Notes under the pieces: model-generated | What the model saw: the letters and a program-made list of their open reading frames with translations, nothing else | Databases searched by the model: none | Told to the model about the DNA's origin: nothing | Assembly (NCBI GenBank): GCA_005882215.1 | Contig: VBCK01000116.1 | Location: 1 to 64,000 of the forward strand | Length of the DNA stretch: 64,000 bases | Origin: Betaproteobacteria bacterium | GTDB taxonomy: Bacteria; Pseudomonadota; Gammaproteobacteria; Burkholderiales; Burkholderiaceae_F | Reading direction: 5' to 3' | Shown here: positions 35,605 to 50,745 of the stretch, one piece after another | How the letters are laid out: each line of letters begins with the position of its first letter | How positions within the stretch are numbered: position 1 is the first letter of the stretch | Translations under genes and position numbers: made by a program

Positions 35605-35681
35605 GCCGCTTTCCGAAGCTGGGGTTCGTGAGCCGAGAACTACGGCAAACGCGGCCGCTTTTCGAAGCGGGTGTTCGTGAA
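35605..35681. repeat. Tandem imperfect about 28-base repeat at the end of the beta-lactamase-fold gene
   Basis: Two similar copies, 35605-35632 and 35654-35681, share the pattern GCCGCTTT(T/C)CGAAGC(T/G)GG(G/T)GTTCGTGA and are 49 bases apart. The second copy encodes the C-terminal residues of the gene ending at 35640; the first lies just beyond its stop. A third related copy is at 62175-62202 just before ispH. They look like a small dispersed element or a local duplication of a gene end. Confidence 0.45.
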
Positions 35682-36632
35682 TAGGTCATGCTCCTCGATC
35701 TGCAGGTAGGCGAAGTGCACGTTGCGCCGGTGATGCGCTTCGTACAGGGCCCAGCTGCGGAAACGCGCAAGCTCCAGATGCTCGACCGTCTCCAGCAAGC
35801 CGTCGCCGCGCAGGTAGGCGGCGCGCGTTTCGTCCTGCAGCGACCGCAGGTACTCGCGCATTTGCTCAAGCCGGCGGGCGGGGCCCGGCGCACCGTGACC
35901 CGGCACCACGATCGCGGGCGCCAGCGCTTGCAGCTGGCCGAGCGCGTCGATCCATTGGGACGGCCGACCGAGCTGCGTCTGCGGAACGACCCCGAAACTT
36001 GCGATGTCGCCGGTGAAAAGCACGCGGGACTCGCTGTCCAGCACGGCCACGGATCCGGGTTGCTCGGTCCAGCCGAAATGCAGAATTTGAATCGTGCGGC
36101 CGCCCGCGCTGATCGTCTGGCTGCCTTCGATCAGCCGGGTCGGCCAGACCACGCGGGTTGCGGCCAGTGCGTCGGTATCGGCCGTGGCTTTCACATCGGC
36201 GACGCAGGCATCGCAGTGCTTGTGCATGAAAGCGTCGGTTTCGCGATGCGCCAGCACCGGGATGCCGCGCGCGGTGAAGGCCGAGTTACCCAGCACCTGG
36301 TCCGGGCTGGCTTGCGTGTCGATCGCCAGCACGACGGGCCGATCCGTCAGCCGCGCCACCGCGGCCAGCAGCGCGGCGCCGTGCTCGGCGCTGCTGCCGG
36401 TGTTCACGACGATCACGCCGCTCGAGCCGACCAGCACGCCCAGGTTGGCCACTGCGCCCCGGTTTGCCATGGAGGCGGCCTCGTCGGCCCCGCGCTGTAC
36501 GTACACGCCGGGCGCCATCCGCTGCAGCGGTCCGTAATCGGCCGCGGCCCACGCCGGCGCGGCTGCGGCCAGCCACGCGGCCGCCAGGGCGCGGAGCGGG
36601 CGGCATCGCAAGTGCGCAATAATCGCACCCAC
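35640..36632 (-). CDS. Quinoprotein-relay metallo-beta-lactamase-fold protein with degenerate metal site
   Basis: This exported protein has a beta-lactamase fold and is related to the SoxH-like 'quinoprotein relay system zinc metallohydrolase' families found with XoxF/PQQ dehydrogenases. The usual HxHxDH is replaced by TQASPDQ, in a context (LGNSAF) identical to the intact paralogue at 37897, and the third metal His region reads FGWTEQPG. FTGDI and PGHGAPG remain. It is therefore probably not a zinc enzyme of the normal kind. The start is uncertain: the GTG at 36632 gives a clean signal peptide (to APAWA), while an ATG at 36692 would overlap the start of the divergent gene. Confidence 0.8.
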   Translation of the reverse strand: MGAIIAHLRCRPLRALAAAWLAAAAPAWAAADYGPLQRMAPGVYVQRGADEAASMANRGAVANLGVLVGSSGVIVVNTGSSAEHGAALLAAVARLTDRPVVLAIDTQASPDQVLGNSAFTARGIPVLAHRETDAFMHKHCDACVADVKATADTDALAATRVVWPTRLIEGSQTISAGGRTIQILHFGWTEQPGSVAVLDSESRVLFTGDIASFGVVPQTQLGRPSQWIDALGQLQALAPAIVVPGHGAPGPARRLEQMREYLRSLQDETRAAYLRGDGLLETVEHLELARFRSWALYEAHHRRNVHFAYLQIEEHDLFTNTRFEKRPRLP

Positions 36633-36690
36633 AACACACCACGGTCCGCCCCGGCGCGCGAGCGCACGGAGCGTCAGGGAGAATCCTTTC

Positions 36691-37044
36691 ATGTCGATGC
36701 GCGTTTCGATCGCCGCTATCGCGCTTGCCTTCACGGCATTCGCCGCCCCCGCGGCGTTCGCCTACGACTATCCCACTGCCGACCGCGTGCAGTACGTGCT
36801 CGAATGCATGTACCGCAACGGCGGTTCAAGCGTGTACGTCTACAAGTGCTCTTGCGTGATCGACTCGATCGCGCAGAAATACAAGTACGACGAGTTCATC
36901 GATTCCTCGACGATCGCGCGCTACCAGACGATGCCGGGGGAAGGCATGGGAATGTTCCGCGATTCCCCGGACGAGCGCGCGGCCGCCAAGCGGTTTCGTG
37001 AGGTCGAAGCCGACGCGAAGAAACTGTGTAGCGTGCCGAAGTGA
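36691..37044 (+). CDS. Small secreted four-cysteine protein in the XoxF region (unknown family)
   Basis: This 117-residue protein has a clear signal peptide (MSMRVSIAAIALAFTAFAAPAAFA). The mature part has Cys at 39, 53, 55 and 113, with the pattern C-x13-C-x-C, and conserved-looking stretches YPTADRVQYVLECMYRNGG, SCVIDSIAQKYKYDEFID and DSPDERAAAKRF. It is transcribed opposite to its neighbours, between two quinoprotein-relay genes. The family was not recognised. The setting suggests a periplasmic role in methanol dehydrogenase function, electron transfer or maturation. A GGGAG lies about 10 bases upstream. Confidence 0.8.
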   Translation: MSMRVSIAAIALAFTAFAAPAAFAYDYPTADRVQYVLECMYRNGGSSVYVYKCSCVIDSIAQKYKYDEFIDSSTIARYQTMPGEGMGMFRDSPDERAAAKRFREVEADAKKLCSVPK

Positions 37045-37072: not shown

Positions 37073-37900
37073 TCAGGACCCGGCGGCCACCGCACTGCGG
37101 ATCGCAAACGAGGTTTCGAAGGTCGCGTTGCTCGAATCCACCACTTCGGCCTTCAGATCGCCATCGGCGTGCGGGACGAAGTAGAAGCGGAAGTTCGGGT
37201 TTTCGCTGATCGTGAAGTCGATGTCGGCGCTCATCACGGGCTTGCCCGCATAGCTGACCTGCACCGTCCGGACGAAGCGGGGCGGGGCGTACAGGCGCGT
37301 GACCTGATCCATCGCCAGTCCGGACACGTTCGGGTGGCTGATCATCAGCTCGACCAGGTTCGGTTGATCCAGCTGGACACCGCCCTCGGTGCGGATTTTC
37401 ATCCGGCCCAGGCGCGCCATCGCGGCTTCCAGGTCCTTGCCGGCGGGCGCTGAACATCCGCCCGCTGCCTTCACGTACTTCATCGTCATGTACAGCTTGC
37501 CGTCCTGCATCTCGGCGATCGCGCGCACCCAGGTGTAATCCTCGATGCGTATCCGGGTCTCGATGTCGGCCCGGCCGCTGTCCGGTGTCAGGGTGAACAC
37601 CGCCCCCAGCGGCGACGGGTTCTTGTCGATCACCAGGTAGATTCTGCGAATCCAGCGCTGCGGCTGCTGCGGCTGCGCCGCGTGAATGAGGATCGGCACC
37701 ACGGCCGCGTCCTCGGCGCGATTCGGAGCCTCGAGCGACACGACCTGATCGGCATCGGCCTCGAAGGCGCGGCCGGCGAACTGCGCCTCGCGCACCTTGC
37801 GCCAGGTCTCGGTCTGCGTTTCCTGCGCGCGCGCCGGCGCACTGAGCACGCCGGCCAGCAGCAGCGCCCCCACCAGCCAGATCGGATCGTTCCGGTTCAT
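37073..37900 (-). CDS. Quinoprotein-dehydrogenase-associated SoxYZ-like carrier protein
   Basis: This 275-residue exported protein (signal to APARAQ) fuses a SoxY-like N-terminal domain and a SoxZ-like C-terminal domain. The SoxY swinging-arm motif appears as AAGGCSAP with Cys149, here in the middle of the fused protein. The SoxZ part includes LMISHPNVSG and YAGKPVMSADIDFTISENP. In PQQ-dehydrogenase loci such fusions are believed to carry an unknown substrate covalently. The ATG at 37900 overlaps the upstream metallohydrolase gene's stop by four bases, so the two are coupled. Its real cargo is unknown. Confidence 0.88.
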   Translation of the reverse strand: MNRNDPIWLVGALLLAGVLSAPARAQETQTETWRKVREAQFAGRAFEADADQVVSLEAPNRAEDAAVVPILIHAAQPQQPQRWIRRIYLVIDKNPSPLGAVFTLTPDSGRADIETRIRIEDYTWVRAIAEMQDGKLYMTMKYVKAAGGCSAPAGKDLEAAMARLGRMKIRTEGGVQLDQPNLVELMISHPNVSGLAMDQVTRLYAPPRFVRTVQVSYAGKPVMSADIDFTISENPNFRFYFVPHADGDLKAEVVDSSNATFETSFAIRSAVAAGS

Positions 37901-38865
37901 TCTTCCCATTCGAGCTCGGCGTACGCGGCCGTGATGTTGCGTCGATGATACCCGTCAAACAGCAGCCAGCGGTCGCGCTCCTCGCGCGCAACTTCCTGCA
38001 GCGCCCGGCCGATCGGATGGTGCGCGCGGATCGCCGCGCGGGTGCCCTCGGCCAGCGCCCGCAGGTAGCGCCGCTGCGCCGCGACAGCGTCGCGCCAGTT
38101 GCCGGAAGGTCCGTGGCCCGGGATGATGCGCTGCGGGCCCATCTGCTCGATCTCGTCCATCGCGGCCAGCCACCCGGTCACGCTGCCGTCCAGAGACGGA
38201 ATCCTGCCCGCGAACAGCAGATCGCCGGCCCACAAGGTTCCGGTGCGTTCGTCGTAGACGGTCAGGTCGTTGTCCGTGTGTGCGGTGCGCCATGCCTTCA
38301 GGATCAGGGTCCGCCCGCCCAGGTCCAGCGAAAAGGGCTGGCCCGGCGCCACCAGGCGGGTCGGCATCACCAGATGTGAATCGCCCGCCTGCTCGCCGAG
38401 CGCCCGCCGCAGCGCACTGGCGTAGGCGGTGCTGCGCGCCGCCAGCGCCGGCCCCAGATGCACATGGCCGATGAACTGCGGATCATCGGCCGCAAACGCG
38501 CTGTTGCCATACACATGGTCGGGGTGCATGTGGGTGTTGATCACCGCGCACACCGGCCGGTCGGTCGCCGCCCGCACCGCCGCGCGCAACTGCGCGCCCT
38601 CGATCGGCGAGCCGCCGGTGTCGATCACCGCAACACAGCGGTCACCGACCACGAAACCGACGTTGGCGATCGCGCCCAGGTTGGCGGCCGATGTTTCCTC
38701 CTGCGTTCCGTAGAAGACGTACGCGCCCGCGCCGACCGGCGTGACCGCAAGCGGGGTGATCGACTCGGCGACGGCGCAGCGGCCGGCGAGCGCCAGCGCG
38801 ATCAGCCACGCGTTCGTCGCGAGCCACGCCAGGCGGCGCGCCGCCGGCATCGGAAAATCGTCCAT
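37897..38865 (-). CDS. Quinoprotein-relay zinc metallohydrolase (metallo-beta-lactamase fold)
   Basis: This 322-residue exported metallo-beta-lactamase-fold protein carries an intact zinc-site set: THMHPDH, a downstream His in HVHLG or WRTAHTDND, WAGDLLF (bridging Asp) and PGHGPSG. An N-terminal hydrophobic signal ends near GRCAVAE. It resembles SoxH-related proteins of the quinoprotein relay system and is co-transcribed with the SoxYZ-like carrier, whose cargo it may hydrolyse. The start could also be the ATG at 38850. Upstream in-frame Arg/Ser-rich sequence is shadow of the moxR gene. Confidence 0.88.
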   Translation of the reverse strand: MDDFPMPAARRLAWLATNAWLIALALAGRCAVAESITPLAVTPVGAGAYVFYGTQEETSAANLGAIANVGFVVGDRCVAVIDTGGSPIEGAQLRAAVRAATDRPVCAVINTHMHPDHVYGNSAFAADDPQFIGHVHLGPALAARSTAYASALRRALGEQAGDSHLVMPTRLVAPGQPFSLDLGGRTLILKAWRTAHTDNDLTVYDERTGTLWAGDLLFAGRIPSLDGSVTGWLAAMDEIEQMGPQRIIPGHGPSGNWRDAVAAQRRYLRALAEGTRAAIRAHHPIGRALQEVAREERDRWLLFDGYHRRNITAAYAELEWEE

Positions 38866-38954
38866 CGGGTATCGGAAGCCGGTTGTTATCCTAGCAACCA
38901 CGACCAGGTCCGAGGCCGAGCTGGTCTGCATTCGATCCGGGCCCGAGCCGCCGC

Positions 38955-39974
38955 ATGACCGATCTGACGCAATTCGACCGCTGGCGCCAACACGCGCTCG
39001 CACTGGAAGCCGGTGTCGCGCAGGCGGTCGTGGGGCAGCCGCGCGCGATCCGCCTGACCACGATGGCCCTGCTGGCTGGCGGCCACGTGCTGCTCGAGGG
39101 CAACGTCGGCGTCGGCAAGACCACGCTGCTGCGCGCGTTCGCGCGCTCGATCGGGGGCGGATTCGAGCGCATCGAGGGTACCGTGGACCTGATGCCCAGC
39201 GATCTGATCTACCACGCCTACATCGACGCGGAGGGCCGCCCACGGGTCGAGCCGGGACCGTTGCTGCATCATGGCCCTGATCTGGCGGTGTTCTTCTTCA
39301 ACGAGATCAACCGCGCGCGGCCCCAGGTGCAGTCGCTGCTGCTGCGCGTGATGGCCGAAGGCAGCGTGCGCGCTTTCAACCGCGACAGCTCGCTGCCGTT
39401 CGTCACCGTGTTCGCCGATCGCAACCGGGTCGAACGCGAGGAGACCTTCGAGCTCGCCGCGGCCGCGCGCGACCGCTTCATGATCGAAGTGTCGGTCGAT
39501 GCGCCGCTCGAGGAGGACCTGCGCTGGCTGCTGATCAGCGAGCCGCAGTTCCATGACGCGGACCAGTTGCTCGAGCGGGTGCCGCGCGGGGTGCTCGACT
39601 TCCACTCGCTGCGCCAGTGCGCCCAGGCGATCCAGCGCTCGGTGCGCGCCAGCGACGCGCTGCGGCGCTACGCGCTGGCGCTGTGGGACGTGCTGAATCG
39701 GCCGGCGGCGCACGGCCTGGTGCTGGACGGCGCCGATGTCGGACGACTGCTGCTCGCGGGGGCCAGCCCGCGCGGCGTTTCGATGCTGCTGCGGATGGCG
39801 CGCGTGCGGGCCTGGCTCGACGGTCGCGACTACCTGGCTCCCGAGGACCTGCGCGATCCGTGGCACGAAGTGATGACGCACCGGCTCGTGCTGGATCCGG
39901 TGTTCGAACTGCGGCGCGCCGAACTGGTGCCGCGCCTGCTGGCGCGGGTTCTGGATCGCGTTCCGGCTCCGTGA
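38955..39974 (+). CDS. mxaR: MoxR-family AAA ATPase (MxaR-like)
   Basis: This 339-residue AAA+ ATPase of the MoxR class is thought to act as a chaperone in activating methanol dehydrogenase. Walker A is EGNVGVGKTTLLRAF, Walker B is VFFFNEINRARPQVQ, and a sensor region follows (FADRNRVEREETFEL). It is the first gene of a tightly packed six-gene operon (mxaRSACKL order). It diverges from the metallohydrolase gene, with about 90 bases between them for both promoters. Confidence 0.92.
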   Translation: MTDLTQFDRWRQHALALEAGVAQAVVGQPRAIRLTTMALLAGGHVLLEGNVGVGKTTLLRAFARSIGGGFERIEGTVDLMPSDLIYHAYIDAEGRPRVEPGPLLHHGPDLAVFFFNEINRARPQVQSLLLRVMAEGSVRAFNRDSSLPFVTVFADRNRVEREETFELAAAARDRFMIEVSVDAPLEEDLRWLLISEPQFHDADQLLERVPRGVLDFHSLRQCAQAIQRSVRASDALRRYALALWDVLNRPAAHGLVLDGADVGRLLLAGASPRGVSMLLRMARVRAWLDGRDYLAPEDLRDPWHEVMTHRLVLDPVFELRRAELVPRLLARVLDRVPAP

Positions 39975-45063: not shown

Positions 45064-46884
45064 ATGCATGGGGGAATACGCTTTCTATTAGTCGGAGCGG
45101 CAGCCGCAGCGATGGCGGGTACCGCGATGGCGAATTCTGATCTGGCCAAGTTAGAAGCCGATTCGAACAACTGGGCTGCGCAGTCGGGCGATTTCGCCCT
45201 CACGCGCCATAGCAAGCTGAATCAAATCAACAAGAGCAACGTTCACAAGCTGCAAGTGGCCTGGACCTTCTCGACCGGCGTTCTGCGCGGACACGAGGGC
45301 GGTCCTCTGGTCATCGGCGACACGCTGTATGTCCATTCGGCATTTCCGAACAAGGTCTGGGCATTGAACCTGGAAGACCAGACGATCAAATGGAAGTACG
45401 AGCCGAAGCAGGATCCGTCGGTGATTCCGGTGATGTGTTGCGACACCGTCAACCGCGGTCTGGCTTATGCGGAAGGCAAGATCTTCCTGCAGCAGGCTGA
45501 CACCACGCTGGTCGCGCTCGATGCCAAGACCGGCAAGGTGATCTGGTCGGTGAAGAACGGCGATCCGAAAGTCGGTGCCACCAATACCAACGCCCCGTTC
45601 ATCATGAAGGACAAGGTATTGACCGGCATTTCGGGCGGCGAGTTCGGCGTTCGCGGCTACGTCGCGGCGTACGACATCAACACCGGAAAACAGGTCTGGA
45701 AGGGCTACAGCATGGGTCCGGACACGGACATGCTGATCAACCCGAGCACGACAACGACGTACGCCGACGGCAAGACGGTTCCGGTTGGCGCGGATTCGTC
45801 GCTGAAGACCTGGCAAGGCGACCAGTGGAAGATCGGCGGCGGCACGACGTGGGGTTGGTACGGCTATGACCCGCAGCTGAACCAGATGTTCTACGGCTCT
45901 GGCAACCCGTCGACCTGGAACCCGACGCAGCGTCCCGGCGACAACAAGTGGTCCATGTCGATCTGGTCGCGCGATGTCGATACCGGCTCGGTCAAGTGGG
46001 TCTATCAGATGACGCCGCACGACGAGTGGGACTTCGACGGCATCAACGAGATGATCCTGGCCGACATCCCGGTGCACGGCAAGCCGACCAAGACCGTGGT
46101 GCACTTCGACCGCAACGGCTTCGGCTACACGCTGGATCGCACCAACGGCATGCTGCTCGTGGCCGAGAAGTATGACCCGTCGGTGAACTGGGCCACGGGC
46201 GTCGATATGAAGACTGGCCGACCGGTAGGCGTTCCGAAGTACTCGACCGAGCACAACGGTCAGGACGTGACGACCAAGGACGTGTGCCCGGCCGCTCTGG
46301 GTACCAAGGACCAGCAACCGGCGTCGTTCGATCCGCAGACCGGCCACTTCTACGTTCCGACCAATCATGTCTGCATGACCTATGAGCCGTTCAAGGTCGA
46401 GTACACCGCCGGCCAGCCCTATGTCGGGGCCACGCTGACGATGTTCCCGGGCCCGACGACCCCGGTCAACGGGATGCAGGGCAGCATGGGCTCGCTGATC
46501 GAGTGGGATGCGGGCACCGGCAAGATCGTGAAGTCGCATCCCGAGAAGTTCTCGGTATGGAGCGGCGTGCTGACGACCGACGGCGGCATCGCCTGCTACG
46601 GAACGCTGGAGGGCTACCTGAAGTGCGTCGATGCGAACGACGTCAACAAGGAACTGTACAAGTTCAAGACGCCGTCCGGCATCATCGGTAACGTGAACAC
46701 CTGGACCTACAAGGGCAAGCAGTACATCGGTGTGCTGTCCGGGATCGGTGGCTGGGCCGGCATCGGCATGGCCGCGGGTCTGGAGAAGGACACCGACGGC
46801 CTGGGTGCGGTCGGTGGCTACAAGGAGCTGTCCAAGTACACGGAGTTGGGCGGTCAGCTGACGGTCTTCACGCTGTCGCAATAA
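45064..46884 (+). CDS. xoxF: Lanthanide-type PQQ-dependent methanol dehydrogenase XoxF
   Basis: XoxF oxidises methanol to formaldehyde (or further) in the periplasm using PQQ and a lanthanide ion. The 606-residue precursor has a signal ending AMANSD, then [19 protein letters not shown]. The vicinal cysteines that contact PQQ are Cys125-Cys126 (VMCCDT). The catalytic region is [13 protein letters not shown], with Asp323 as catalytic base and Asp325 two residues on; this extra Asp marks lanthanide enzymes, whereas calcium-type MxaF has Ala there. AAGGAG precedes the ATG by six bases. No mxaI small-subunit gene is present. Confidence 0.97.
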
Positions 46885-46906
46885 CTTCGAGTCGTTGTCG
46901 ATAGGG

Positions 46907-46935
46907 GCGCGCGAGCCTGGCTCGCGCGCTTTTTT
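46907..46935 (+). terminator. Rho-independent terminator after xoxF
   Basis: A perfect ten-base-pair stem (46907-46916 with 46920-46929) and a CTG loop are followed by six T residues, starting 22 bases after the xoxF stop. It separates xoxF from the folB-cytochrome-xoxJ transcript, so xoxF is probably expressed as a single-gene unit. Confidence 0.9.
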
Positions 46936-46993
46936 ATGCGGTGGCAGCAGGCGCAGTTTCCGCCAGCTGCGTCACGAGCGAATCGGAACCGAC

Positions 46994-47485
46994 ATGGACA
47001 AGATCTTTCTAAGCGGCCTGCGCGTCGAGGCGATGGTCGGCATCTACCCGGACGAGCGGACCTCTTCGCGCCCGGTCGAAATCGACCTGGAGATCGCAGT
47101 GCCGGGCGACCGGGTGTTCCGATCGGGCGACGTCGCCGACACGGTCGACTACGCGGCGGTTTCGGAGCGGATCCGGGCCGAGCTGGCCCGTGTCCGGTTC
47201 GGCTTGCTGGAACAGATGTCTCAGGCCATCGCCGGCATCCTGCTCGACGAATTCGGATCGCCGTGGGTGCGTGTGACGGTCGTCAAACTCGGCGTGTTGG
47301 GCGATGGCGTCAAGGTCGGCATTTCCATCGAGAGGCGAGCCGCAAAGTCCCGCAGTTCCCGCGTCGCGCCGCGTCGCAACGGGGTTCCGGTCGGGCCGGA
47401 CTACCGGATGTTGATGTCCGGTGGGATCGACGGAGGTGATGGCGCGGCGCAGCATGTCCAGGCGAACTCTGGTACACCAAGGTAG
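46994..47485 (+). CDS. Dihydroneopterin aldolase-family protein (FolB-like)
   Basis: This 163-residue FolB-family protein shows IFLSGLRVEAMVGIYPDER (active-site region), RPVEIDLEIA, DTVDYAAVSERIRAEL and VTVVKLGVLGDGVKVGISIER. FolB converts dihydroneopterin to 6-hydroxymethyl-dihydropterin, a step shared by folate and H4MPT biosynthesis. Its location between xoxF and cytochrome genes, with a pterin dehydratase on the other side, suggests service to H4MPT production. The C-terminus has about 35 extra low-complexity residues (Arg/Gly-rich) beyond the FolB core. Confidence 0.88.
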   Translation: MDKIFLSGLRVEAMVGIYPDERTSSRPVEIDLEIAVPGDRVFRSGDVADTVDYAAVSERIRAELARVRFGLLEQMSQAIAGILLDEFGSPWVRVTVVKLGVLGDGVKVGISIERRAAKSRSSRVAPRRNGVPVGPDYRMLMSGGIDGGDGAAQHVQANSGTPR

Positions 47486-47580: not shown

Positions 47581-48063
47581 ATGGGAGCGGCTTCGTTCAG
47601 TGCGCTTGCGCTTTTTTCGACGATTGCAGTAGTTCAACCCGTTTACGCGGATGATCCGCCGACAAACGTTCCAGGAGCTGACGTGCCGGCGGCGACCGGC
47701 TCGGATCGGGCTGCGGTCCCGGCGCCCGCCGGCAGCGCCGATGCCGTTCCGTACCGCGTCGTCGACGGCGATCACGTTGACGCCAATACGTTGAAGGGCT
47801 GGCAAACTTGGCGAGCGATGGCGTGCGACCGTTGCCATGGGCCGGACCAGGAAGGGCTGGTGGGTCCATCGCTTGTGCAGTCATTGAAGGTTATGACGAA
47901 GGACGAGTTCAAGGCGGCCGTGTTGGACGGGCGAGTTGAAAAGGGGATGCCCGGTTTCAGCGCTGTGCAGACCGTGGTCGACAACATCGACAACCTGTAT
48001 GCATACCTGAAAGGGCGCTCGGATGGCGCCATCAAGCCAGGAAAGTTGAAAGGGATCGAATGA
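47581..48063 (+). CDS. Periplasmic c-type cytochrome (first of a tandem pair)
   Basis: This 160-residue exported mono-heme cytochrome has a short signal (to VYADDP), a Pro/Ala-rich linker of about 30 residues, and then YRVVDGDHVDANTLKGWQTWRA. The heme motif is CDRCH at 82-86. KGMPGFSAV offers the Met ligand, and NLYAYLKGRSDGAIKPG closes the domain. It resembles c-553i/XoxG-type cytochromes that take electrons from XoxF. GGGAGG lies just before the ATG. It overlaps its paralogue by four bases. Confidence 0.9.
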   Translation: MGAASFSALALFSTIAVVQPVYADDPPTNVPGADVPAATGSDRAAVPAPAGSADAVPYRVVDGDHVDANTLKGWQTWRAMACDRCHGPDQEGLVGPSLVQSLKVMTKDEFKAAVLDGRVEKGMPGFSAVQTVVDNIDNLYAYLKGRSDGAIKPGKLKGIE

Positions 48064-48587
48064 GTGTTTTGTTTCGCGGCTGGGTGTGGACCCTCGTCGT
48101 CGCCGCGCTGACCGGGGCGGCCGGACTCGCCGCGGCGGACGACGCTCCGCCCGTGACCGGGCCTCAGCCGGCCGCAGGCGCCGCCAAGCAGGAACCGGCT
48201 GGCGTGCCGCAACCGGCCGCCGCGCCGCAACCGGCCGCGAGCCCTGCAGCGGGCGGGGGCGGGGACAAGCCGCTGTACCGCGTGGTTGACGGCAACCACG
48301 TCGATGCCAACACGATGAAGGGGTGGCGTACCTGGCGCGCGCTGGCGTGCGAGCGCTGCCATGGCGCGAACCAGGAGGGTCTGGTCGGCCCCTCGCTGGT
48401 GGACGACCTGAAAACGCTGTCCCGGGAGGACTTCAACAAGTGCGTTCTCGAGGGCCGCATCGACAAAGGCATGCCGAACTTCGGTGGGATCAAGTCGTTG
48501 GCCGACAACCTCGACGACCTGTACGCGTTCCTGAAGGGGCGCTCGGACGGAGCCATCCCGACCGGTCATTTGAAGGAAATCGAGTGA
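48060..48587 (+). CDS. Periplasmic c-type cytochrome (second of a tandem pair)
   Basis: This 175-residue paralogue of the preceding cytochrome shares YRVVDGNHVDANTMKGWRTW, the heme motif CERCH at 97-101, KGMPNFGGIKS (Met ligand) and LYAFLKGRSDGAIPTG. Its Pro/Ala/Gln-rich linker after the signal is longer and repetitive (QPAA units), and it has an extra Cys in FNKCVLEG. It arose by tandem duplication and probably forms part of the electron path from XoxF. It overlaps both neighbours by four bases. Confidence 0.9.
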   Translation: MSVLFRGWVWTLVVAALTGAAGLAAADDAPPVTGPQPAAGAAKQEPAGVPQPAAAPQPAASPAAGGGGDKPLYRVVDGNHVDANTMKGWRTWRALACERCHGANQEGLVGPSLVDDLKTLSREDFNKCVLEGRIDKGMPNFGGIKSLADNLDDLYAFLKGRSDGAIPTGHLKEIE

Positions 48588-49465
48588 CCGGGCCGATCCG
48601 TCCGCGCAACTGGATCGCGGCCGCTGCGGCGGCGCTCGCGTTTGCGGCCGGCGCGCGCGCCGCCGACACTCCCCCGCCGGCCGGTGACGGCGTGCTGCGC
48701 GTTTGCGCCGATCCGAACAACATGCCGCTGTCGAACCGCAACGGCGAGGGCTACGAGAACCGGATCGCCGAATTGCTGGCGCGGGAACTCGGCTGGAAGC
48801 TGGAGTACACCTGGTTTCCTCAGCGCATGGGGTTCATCCGGAACACGCTGAGAGCGCGCGACGCAGACCAGGACCGCTTCAAGTGCGATCTGGTGATCGG
48901 AGTTCCGGTCGGATACGAACTGACGCTGACCACGCCCGCCTATTACCACTCGACCTGGGCGATGGTGATTCCGAAGGGCAAAGGGCTGGACGATATCCAT
49001 GCGCCCGATGACCTGTTGAAGATAGACCCGGCGAAGTTGAAAAAGCTGCGTTTCGGGCTGGTGGGGCGCTCGCCGCCGACCGACTGGCTTCTGAAGAACA
49101 ACCTGATCGAGCAGGCGGTGCCGTTCGCCACGCAGTCCGGAGACCCGGAGGCGTACCCCGGCGAGCTGATCGACAAGGAACTGGCGGCCGGCCATGTCGA
49201 TGTCGCGTTCGCCTGGGGACCGATTGCCGGCTACTTCGTCAGGCACGCCAAGCCGCCGGGAATGCAGGTCCTGCCGTTTCCGCCCAGCCCGGACATCAAG
49301 TTCGACTACGAGATCTCGATGGGCGTACGCTTCGGCGAAAAGGAGTGGCGTGATCGGATCGCTGGCCTTATCGCCCGCAACAAGAAGGAAATCGACTCGA
49401 TCCTTCTGTCCTATGGAGTCCCGCTGCTGGACGATCGGGGCAACCTGATTCAGGTGGGCAACTGA
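48584..49465 (+). CDS. xoxJ: XoxJ-like periplasmic substrate-binding-fold protein
   Basis: This 293-residue exported protein has the bacterial solute-binding fold (family 3-like) typical of quinoprotein-dehydrogenase-associated proteins: VLRVCADPNNMPLSNRNGEGYENRIAELLAR, TWFPQRMGFIRNTLRA, CDLVIGVPVGYE and LTTPAYYHSTWAMVIPKGKG serve as landmarks. Members called MxaJ/XoxJ interact with the dehydrogenase and may help PQQ or lanthanide loading, rather than serve an ABC transporter. The GTG start overlaps the second cytochrome gene by four bases, in a cytochrome-cytochrome-xoxJ operon. Confidence 0.93.
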   Translation: MTGPIRPRNWIAAAAAALAFAAGARAADTPPPAGDGVLRVCADPNNMPLSNRNGEGYENRIAELLARELGWKLEYTWFPQRMGFIRNTLRARDADQDRFKCDLVIGVPVGYELTLTTPAYYHSTWAMVIPKGKGLDDIHAPDDLLKIDPAKLKKLRFGLVGRSPPTDWLLKNNLIEQAVPFATQSGDPEAYPGELIDKELAAGHVDVAFAWGPIAGYFVRHAKPPGMQVLPFPPSPDIKFDYEISMGVRFGEKEWRDRIAGLIARNKKEIDSILLSYGVPLLDDRGNLIQVGN

Positions 49466-49479
49466 AGAAGCGGTTCGGG

Positions 49480-50229
49480 ATGCCGTTTTATCGCCATCCA
49501 AGCGCCCGCGCGGTCCGGCGCGAGGACCGTCAACGCGCGGCGCGCCGCGTCGCGCCGGTTGCGGCCGCCGCGCTGAGCTTCGCGCTGCTTTTCGGGCCTG
49601 GCACTGCGCGCGCGGAATCGAGCGAGATCTCGCGGGCCGAGACGCTGCTGTTCATGTCGCCGCACCTGAAGGAGCTGCAGCCGCCGAGCCGGCTGCACTA
49701 TGCATTCCACAAAAGCGGAACGCTGGAAACGGGCTTTTCGGATACGGTCGACATCGACATCACCACCGGGCCGGACGGCAGCAGGAAGGGCGTGGTCAGA
49801 TTTTTCTCCGGAAAGCGCCAGATCAAGTACCCGGAGGTCGAGCGTGCCGAGGGCAATCCGGTGCTGCTGTTCTATCTGGAGCGGGAAATCCGCGAAATGT
49901 CGCGCTTGACCGGCGGGCAACCGAATCACTTCCGGCAAAGGATCCGCACGGCGCTGGCCCAGTCGGCGCAGATCAAGGACGTCGACATCCGTTTTGGCGG
50001 CCGCACGATGCGGGCGCAGCAGATCACCATCTCGCCGTACGATTCCGATCCGAACCGCGAACGCTTCGACCGCTTGGCCACCAAGCAGTACGTCTTCACG
50101 ATCTGCGAAACGATCCCCGGTGTCGTGTACGAGATGCGAGGCGTCGTCGGGGCGCCCAGCGGATCGTCCGCGGACGAGGCCGTGATCGACGAGACGCTGA
50201 CGTTCGCCTCCGCCGGGGTGCCCAAGTAG
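49480..50229 (+). CDS. Secreted protein of unknown function downstream of xoxJ
   Basis: This 249-residue protein begins with an Arg-rich start and an export signal (VAAAALSFALLFGPGTARA). The mature domain is beta-rich: LQPPSRLHYAFHKSGTLETGF, VDIDITTGPDGSRKGVVRFFSG and RFGGRTMRAQQITISPY. It has one mature Cys (FTICETIPG). It starts 14 bases after xoxJ, so it is almost certainly in that operon. No family was recognised. Given the partners, a periplasmic accessory of methanol oxidation is likely, but this is inference from position only. Confidence 0.82.
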   Translation: MPFYRHPSARAVRREDRQRAARRVAPVAAAALSFALLFGPGTARAESSEISRAETLLFMSPHLKELQPPSRLHYAFHKSGTLETGFSDTVDIDITTGPDGSRKGVVRFFSGKRQIKYPEVERAEGNPVLLFYLEREIREMSRLTGGQPNHFRQRIRTALAQSAQIKDVDIRFGGRTMRAQQITISPYDSDPNRERFDRLATKQYVFTICETIPGVVYEMRGVVGAPSGSSADEAVIDETLTFASAGVPK

Positions 50230-50265: not shown

Positions 50266-50745
50266 ATGTTGCGGTCATCCGGCCTCCTGCTCGCCTGCGC
50301 AGTCGCAGCGGCAGGGTCCTCGATCGCGCAGTCCCCGCAGATCAAGCTGCCCGGCAGCGGCCTTTTCATATTGCCGGTCGATGCCGGCCAATCGCTGCTG
50401 AGGCAATGCTCCCGCGCTGCGCCGGCGAATGTTTCCCAGTTTTGGAATCCGTCACCCGAACAAATCCAAAAACTCGAATTGCTGCTGCCCAAATACGTTC
50501 GCTATGGCGCCGGTCGGAAGCCCGGCATCCCGGACGACGTGGAATATCACCGCCAATATGTCGGCATTGTTGTCAACGGGAAACGGCTGATATATGGAAA
50601 CTTCTATCCGGTGAGCGTTTCTGGTTACTTCGACGAGAAATCGACGCCGGTGATCATCTGCGATGGCGGCGCGGCCTTCTGGGGAATCGTGTTCGAGCCG
50701 GAATCGAATGTATTCCTCGATCTGCAGGTCAACGGGTCGATTTGA
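50266..50745 (+). CDS. Small secreted protein of unknown function at the end of the xox operon
   Basis: This 159-residue protein has a signal peptide (MLRSSGLLLACAVAAAGSSIAQ) and a mature domain with two Cys: LRQCSRAAPANVSQFWNPSPEQ, VGIVVNGKRLIYGNFYPVS and PVIICDGGAAFWGIVFEPES. The two Cys could form a disulphide. Composition is slightly richer in A/T than the neighbouring genes. It lies 36 bases after the previous unknown gene. No family was recognised; domains of this look often occur next to hydrolases or binding proteins. Confidence 0.78.
   Translation: MLRSSGLLLACAVAAAGSSIAQSPQIKLPGSGLFILPVDAGQSLLRQCSRAAPANVSQFWNPSPEQIQKLELLLPKYVRYGAGRKPGIPDDVEYHRQYVGIVVNGKRLIYGNFYPVSVSGYFDEKSTPVIICDGGAAFWGIVFEPESNVFLDLQVNGSI

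Follow-up and report, generated by a model that had tools for sequence, protein, structure and literature searches.

A short gene in the XoxF locus of a Burkholderiales bacterium raises the question of what its product does there. Among the lanthanide-dependent methanol dehydrogenases, XoxF5 forms the largest clade reported, and the set of proteins needed for a working XoxF5 is so far incomplete. In the 64,000-nucleotide stretch of DNA analysed here (the window), the gene lies among quinoprotein relay genes and encodes an exported four-cysteine protein, called FOURCYS below (Table 1). The original prediction had described a conserved-looking 117-residue exported protein with Cys39, Cys53, Cys55 and Cys113, of no recognised family, on the strand opposite to the relay genes, and had proposed that it could act as redox partner, or as chaperone, of the neighbouring SoxYZ-like thiol carrier.

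Table 1. Coordinates of FOURCYS, its motifs and its neighbours in the window
Feature	Position	Strand	Basis
SoxH-like metallo-beta-lactamase-fold protein, divergent neighbour	35640..36734	-	below cut-off of both relay hydrolase models
Four-cysteine exported protein (FOURCYS)	36691..37044	+	ORF, translation; 117 aa plus stop
FOURCYS predicted signal peptide, residues 1-24	36691..36762	+	sequence; AXA-type cleavage between AFA and YDYPT
FOURCYS Cys39 codon	36805..36807	+	invariant, 95/95 homologues
FOURCYS Cys53-Ser54-Cys55 (CxC) codons	36847..36855	+	both Cys invariant, 95/95 homologues
FOURCYS Cys113 codon	37027..37029	+	invariant, 95/95 homologues
Quinoprotein dehydrogenase-associated SoxYZ-like carrier	37073..37909	-	TIGR04557, 272.6 bits (cut-off 140)
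Quinoprotein relay system zinc metallohydrolase 2	37897..39243	-	TIGR04559, 379 bits; HxHxDH intact; true start internal, because the match begins at residue 165
XoxF methanol dehydrogenase, XoxF5 clade	45064..46884	+	closest PDB sequences 6DAM, 6OC5/6OC6; tree
c-type cytochrome (XoxG-like) 1	47581..48063	+	PF13442
c-type cytochrome (XoxG-like) 2	48060..48587	+	PF13442
XoxJ-like periplasmic binding protein	48587..49465	+	ORF; start GTG from sequence
HYP250, 249-aa exported protein, second unnamed family	49480..50229	+	no Pfam/NCBIfam match

The four-cysteine gene and its family

The ORF was found exactly where the original prediction had placed it, with a predicted signal peptide, and the flanking relay genes are all on the minus strand. 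Read by eye, the predicted signal peptide is of the standard type (MSMRVSIAAIALAFTAFAAPAAFA followed by YDYPT), and a purine-rich Shine-Dalgarno-like GGGAGAA stands upstream of the start. Because long ORFs abound in GC-rich DNA (here, 87 ORFs of at least 80 aa overlap 18 kb), the length of the FOURCYS ORF proves nothing alone, and it is conservation between sequences that marks it as coding. FOURCYS shares 74% identity with its ortholog from a sister species in the genus; the differences fall mostly at third codon positions (19/17/49 by codon position), and the dN/dS of 0.16 (GC3 0.83) against this ortholog indicates purifying selection. If the divergent SoxH-like gene uses an inner ATG (MKGFSL...; possible ATG at 36692), the two start codons overlap head to head at 36690-36693 (CATG).

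Homologues were found by tblastn in 124 plasmid records, including those of Sinorhizobium, Azospirillum, Paraburkholderia, Azoarcus and Roseomonas, where they are mostly annotated as 'hypothetical protein', and a profile-guided scan located at least 584 places in GTDB genome contigs. Gammaproteobacteria (Halomonas and a Thiotrichales MAG) are represented among the 80 places that were kept. The four cysteines are invariant throughout the 95 extracted homologues, 81 of which have the spacing C-x13-C-x-C-x56/57-C (C-x13-C-x-C-x57-C in the window protein); P28, T29, D58 and G83 are also invariant, and R32, V36, I57, E84 and R90 nearly so. The conservation suspected from the single sequence is thus borne out.

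Neither FOURCYS nor 15 aligned relatives matched any model of Pfam-A (2025) or NCBIfam 20.0 over its curated cut-off, and PDB sequences gave no meaningful match to the protein or its relatives. These searches agree with the original prediction, which had recognised no family by eye, and they assign FOURCYS to no unrelated family. One weak PHROG match (E 3.4e-4, residues 4-56, function unknown) lies partly over the signal peptide, and low-scoring matches to PsbN, Pvs28 and the proteasome seem due to the signal peptide or to chance. As judged by sequence comparison, FOURCYS is an undescribed, widespread family.

An AlphaFold2 model built from a 42-row alignment (pLDDT 88.4, pTM 0.74) predicts five helices after the signal peptide (residues 29-42, 48-61, 66-80, 84-91 and 93-112), with confidence low over residues 1-20 and high from about residue 30. 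The model puts Cys39 in helix one and the CxC in helix two, and Cys113 closes the fifth. Foldseek found nothing similar among solved structures (best E 2.6), and the sequence has no CxxC, no CxxCH haem-binding motif and no EF-hand (DxDxDG) loop. Several known identities were ruled out on these grounds: a thioredoxin/DsbA-type redox protein (only a CxC, an all-helical model and no Foldseek match), a c-type cytochrome (CxxCH absent), lanmodulin (no EF-hand loop and no Pfam match), and the SoxYZ-like carrier itself, whose model TIGR04557 matches the neighbouring gene and not FOURCYS.

Co-distribution with XoxF5

FOURCYS, XoxF, the SoxYZ-like carrier and HYP250 were sought in 300 genomes of the window's order, all with a completeness of 90% or more. 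XoxF5 was present in 26 of them, 25 at the search threshold together with G245, in which FOURCYS lies beside an XoxF fragment at a contig end. FOURCYS was present in 28. Both occurred in 26 genomes, XoxF5 without FOURCYS in none, FOURCYS without XoxF5 in two (G102 and G129), and neither in 272 (Fisher p about 2e-35, with genomes treated as independent of phylogeny). In all 22 genomes having both genes on one contig, FOURCYS was no more than 10 kb from XoxF. FOURCYS and XoxF5 are also present or absent together within genus g45, where five genomes have both, and G172, G303 and G356 have the SoxYZ-like carrier and neither of the two.

Trees made with IQ-TREE and FastTree grouped the window XoxF with M. 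extorquens XoxF1 (6OC5/6OC6) and 6DAM, and placed XoxF from FOURCYS loci in the same clade, apart from SolV XoxF2, XoxF4-like proteins and MxaF. Nine distant XoxF matches in family f24 could not all be taken as XoxF4, since the trees split them into two groups. The matches at 52-53% (G124, G211, G273 and the first copy of G378) clustered with MxaF (1G72), and G170, which has the same score as these, was left out of the trees. The matches at 58-60% (G243, G301, G354 and the second copy of G378) formed a separate XoxF4-like group, to which G328 was assigned by score. FOURCYS was found in none of the five genomes with XoxF4-like proteins only (G243, G301, G328, G354 and G378).

Among 35 FOURCYS carriers chosen by homology alone, 34 had XoxF (55-80% identity) and 21 had a SoxYZ-like protein over the cut-off. 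A sample of 192 Alphaproteobacteria gave FOURCYS in 6 of 8 XoxF5 genomes and XoxF5 in 6 of 7 strong FOURCYS carriers. The streamlined 1.4-Mb alphaproteobacterial genomes G398 and G513 (L121/L122) have XoxF5 and the SoxYZ-like carrier with FOURCYS not detected, and in G502 (L120), another alphaproteobacterial genome of 1.4 Mb, the HYP250-FOURCYS pair is present and XoxF absent. Two plasmid records with an xoxF, from Methylobacterium bullatum and M. extorquens CM4, gave no FOURCYS match; these records may lack the main xox cluster, because their xoxF has no adjoining xoxG or xoxJ. The rule linking XoxF5 and FOURCYS is therefore strong, not absolute.

The gene neighbourhoods point the same way. 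Genes for XoxF, the SoxYZ-like carrier or H4MPT C1 metabolism are no farther than about 9 kb from FOURCYS in 77 of 80 fetched loci, and xoxF itself is that near in 60, so that the placement of this gene in xoxF loci, which the original prediction had drawn from one locus, holds for many xoxF clusters. On a plasmid of Azoarcus KH32C, one strand carries xoxF, a cytochrome c gene, xoxJ, HYP250, FOURCYS, relay hydrolase 2, the SoxYZ-like gene and an MBL-fold gene. The Massilia locus reads class III adh, gfa, FOURCYS, xoxF, cytochrome, xoxJ and HYP250, with the SoxYZ-like gene absent from the locus. Burkholderiaceae loci have H4MPT genes and fae, then FOURCYS, with xoxF nearby, and those of Rhodobacterales and Sinorhizobium have regulators, HYP250, FOURCYS, the SoxYZ-like gene, relay hydrolase, adhI and xoxF. 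The element common to FOURCYS loci across lineages is XoxF, not the SoxYZ-like carrier.

Proximity and co-distribution mark FOURCYS as a probable accessory of the XoxF5 system. Its presence in every XoxF5 genome of the order sample, and not in those with only XoxF4-like proteins or MxaF, makes it a strong candidate for the kind of clade-specific accessory that the XoxF5 set still lacks.

Candidate roles of the four-cysteine protein

FOURCYS is linked to XoxF5 and exported, lacks CxxC, CxxCH and EF-hand motifs, and has cysteines positioned to staple helices; for these reasons we think, with moderate confidence, that the lanthanide-dependent methanol dehydrogenase system of XoxF5 has in FOURCYS a periplasmic accessory or assembly factor of its own, with structural disulfides. 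After export, it would fold as a small all-helical protein in which the cysteines likely form two structural disulfides (the CxC to Cys39 and Cys113), stapling three helices. It would then bind XoxF5 or the partners XoxG/XoxJ and assist in the assembly, loading or stability of the holoenzyme without a part in catalysis, and in many species it would act together with the LolA/MucB-like HYP250, often encoded just upstream. The XoxJ/MxaJ periplasmic binding proteins are likewise exported accessories encoded with a methanol dehydrogenase, but XoxJ (about 290 aa) has a separate gene in the same clusters, and FOURCYS matches no family, that of XoxJ included. An accessory of this kind could aid functional expression of XoxF5 in foreign hosts.

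The CxC could be structural or redox-active. If it is redox-active, FOURCYS might be paired through thiol-disulfide chemistry with the SoxYZ-like carrier and the CxxC-bearing SoxH-like neighbour, in a relay of periplasmic thiols that passes on electrons or sulfane sulfur to serve the quinoprotein. The four invariant cysteines, CxC included, are consistent with this, and part of a 2026 review (PMC12997753) suggests that the SoxYZ-like, SoxH-like and rhodanese proteins help PQQ dehydrogenases to mature or to form disulfides; that part makes no mention of the FOURCYS family. CxC-bearing disulfide exchange proteins share with FOURCYS a CxC in an oxidising compartment, but FOURCYS has no CxxC and no thioredoxin fold, and its two further invariant cysteines suggest structural pairing.

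The distribution of the carrier also bears on this reading. The SoxYZ-like protein (TIGR04557) and the relay metallohydrolases (TIGR04558/TIGR04559) share loci with FOURCYS, are often adjacent to it and are all exported, whereas none of them matches it in sequence. In the order sample, FOURCYS is within 1.5 kb of the SoxYZ-like gene in 16 of its 28 carriers; a functional link is therefore likely, not obligatory. SoxYZ-like proteins occurred in 60 of the 300 genomes, 24 with FOURCYS (a significant association, 24/28) and 36 without it, and were absent over the cut-off from 4 of the 28 carriers. Because its distribution is wider than that of FOURCYS (60 against 28 of 300), the SoxYZ-like carrier is not specific to XoxF5. 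Among the 35 carriers chosen by homology, 14 have no SoxYZ-like protein over the cut-off (Halomonas, Pseudoduganella, Massilia, Burkholderia, Haematobacter and others). FOURCYS thus tracks XoxF5 rather than the SoxYZ-like carrier. Co-occurrence was complete for XoxF5 (26/26) and partial for the carrier (24/60). Of the original prediction, the adjacency to the SoxYZ-like gene stands, while the proposal of a redox partner or chaperone is not supported in the form given. As the main explanation of FOURCYS, partnership with the carrier is rejected on distribution, not on adjacency, and we regard the thiol-partner reading as rather unlikely.

On sequence features, the SoxYZ-like carrier is more likely to have its thiol partner in the SoxH-like neighbour than in FOURCYS. 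The window's SoxH-like protein has lost HxHxDH (DTQASPDQ) and has a conserved CxxC (HCDAC) instead of zinc ligands. About 12 distinct members of this subgroup in the fetched loci (besides the window, L002, L004, L016, L019, L036, L074, L087, L090, L091, L097 and L100) all lack a complete HxHxDH and share a CxxC at one position of the alignment; in the canonical relay metallohydrolases of those loci, HxHxDH is kept and CxxC is missing there. A possible role for the subgroup is that of a pseudo-hydrolase with thiol-redox function in the quinoprotein relay.

FOURCYS might instead be a delivery protein whose cysteines, together with D58, E84, R32 and R90, would bind a lanthanide, PQQ, copper or haem and pass this metal or cofactor on to XoxF5 or its cytochrome. 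The strong linkage to XoxF5 fits such a carrier, as do the invariant or nearly invariant Arg, Asp and Glu residues besides the cysteines and the weak match of HYP250 to the LolA/LprG-like fold, which is known for hydrophobic ligand cavities. Hard lanthanide ions, on the other hand, do not favour thiolates; FOURCYS has neither an EF-hand nor CxxCH and belongs to no known metal-chaperone family, and XoxF4-like lineages need the same cofactors yet have no FOURCYS. Delivery of a metal or cofactor is unlikely in view of these points.

A bolder proposal, which we hold to be distinctly improbable, makes FOURCYS a near-universal XoxF5 maturation factor whose CxC would exchange disulfides with XoxF5 (for example with its vicinal Cys-Cys ring), the zinc-less CxxC SoxH-like protein and the SoxYZ-like arm being further members of one periplasmic relay of thiols; if true, such a relay would explain the sulfur-oxidation-like genes in XoxF5 clusters. 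Least probable of all is a role apart from XoxF5 itself, in C1 regulation or the handling of formaldehyde in the periplasm: FOURCYS does come after fae and H4MPT genes in about 36 Burkholderiaceae loci, and after two-component regulators and before adhI/fghA in Rhodobacterales, but since it occurs with both the glutathione and the H4MPT pathway, neither C1 pathway is the common factor, and XoxF5 is.

HYP250 and the downstream genes

The preferred reading, an accessory or assembly factor of XoxF5, brings in HYP250 as a frequent companion. In 21 fetched loci (some places were fetched twice), HYP250 precedes FOURCYS on the same strand at a distance of 12-198 bp, and all 18 genomes of the order sample that have it also have FOURCYS. 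Sinorhizobium meliloti 1021 carries the two genes on pSymB. No Pfam or NCBIfam model matches HYP250. Its predicted structure (pLDDT 86) has a local likeness to the half-barrels of LprG/LppX, MucB and LolA, with a match probability of about 1.0 and a TM of only about 0.3, and we tentatively assign it a LolA/LprG/MucB-like fold on the strength of this model.

In Methylorubrum extorquens AM1, orf6 and orf7 (META1p1746-1747) are adjacent unknowns between xoxFGJ (META1p1740-1742) and pqqE, and both are required only when La is supplied (PMC7391723). Deletion of orf6 lowered La-dependent methanol growth from 0.16 to 0.03 per h, and deletion of orf7 gave a 9 h lag and growth at 0.08 per h (PMC7391723). 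HYP250 and FOURCYS are likewise an adjacent gene pair in many XoxF5 loci. By this likeness of gene arrangement, HYP250-FOURCYS may be orf6/orf7 of M. extorquens AM1, a lead rather than a result; it offers a concrete identity to test for two genes whose published La-dependent phenotype is unexplained.

Directly 3' of HYP250 in the window, a 159-aa predicted exported protein with no Pfam or NCBIfam match is encoded at 50266-50745 (+). The XoxJ-like protein of the window is homologous to the products of genes annotated 'quinoprotein dehydrogenase-associated putative ABC transporter substrate-binding protein', for example in Azoarcus. A small folB-like frame (46895-47485) follows xoxF, and behind it two c-type cytochrome genes stand in tandem at 47581-48587 (+), an arrangement that suggests a duplicated XoxG.
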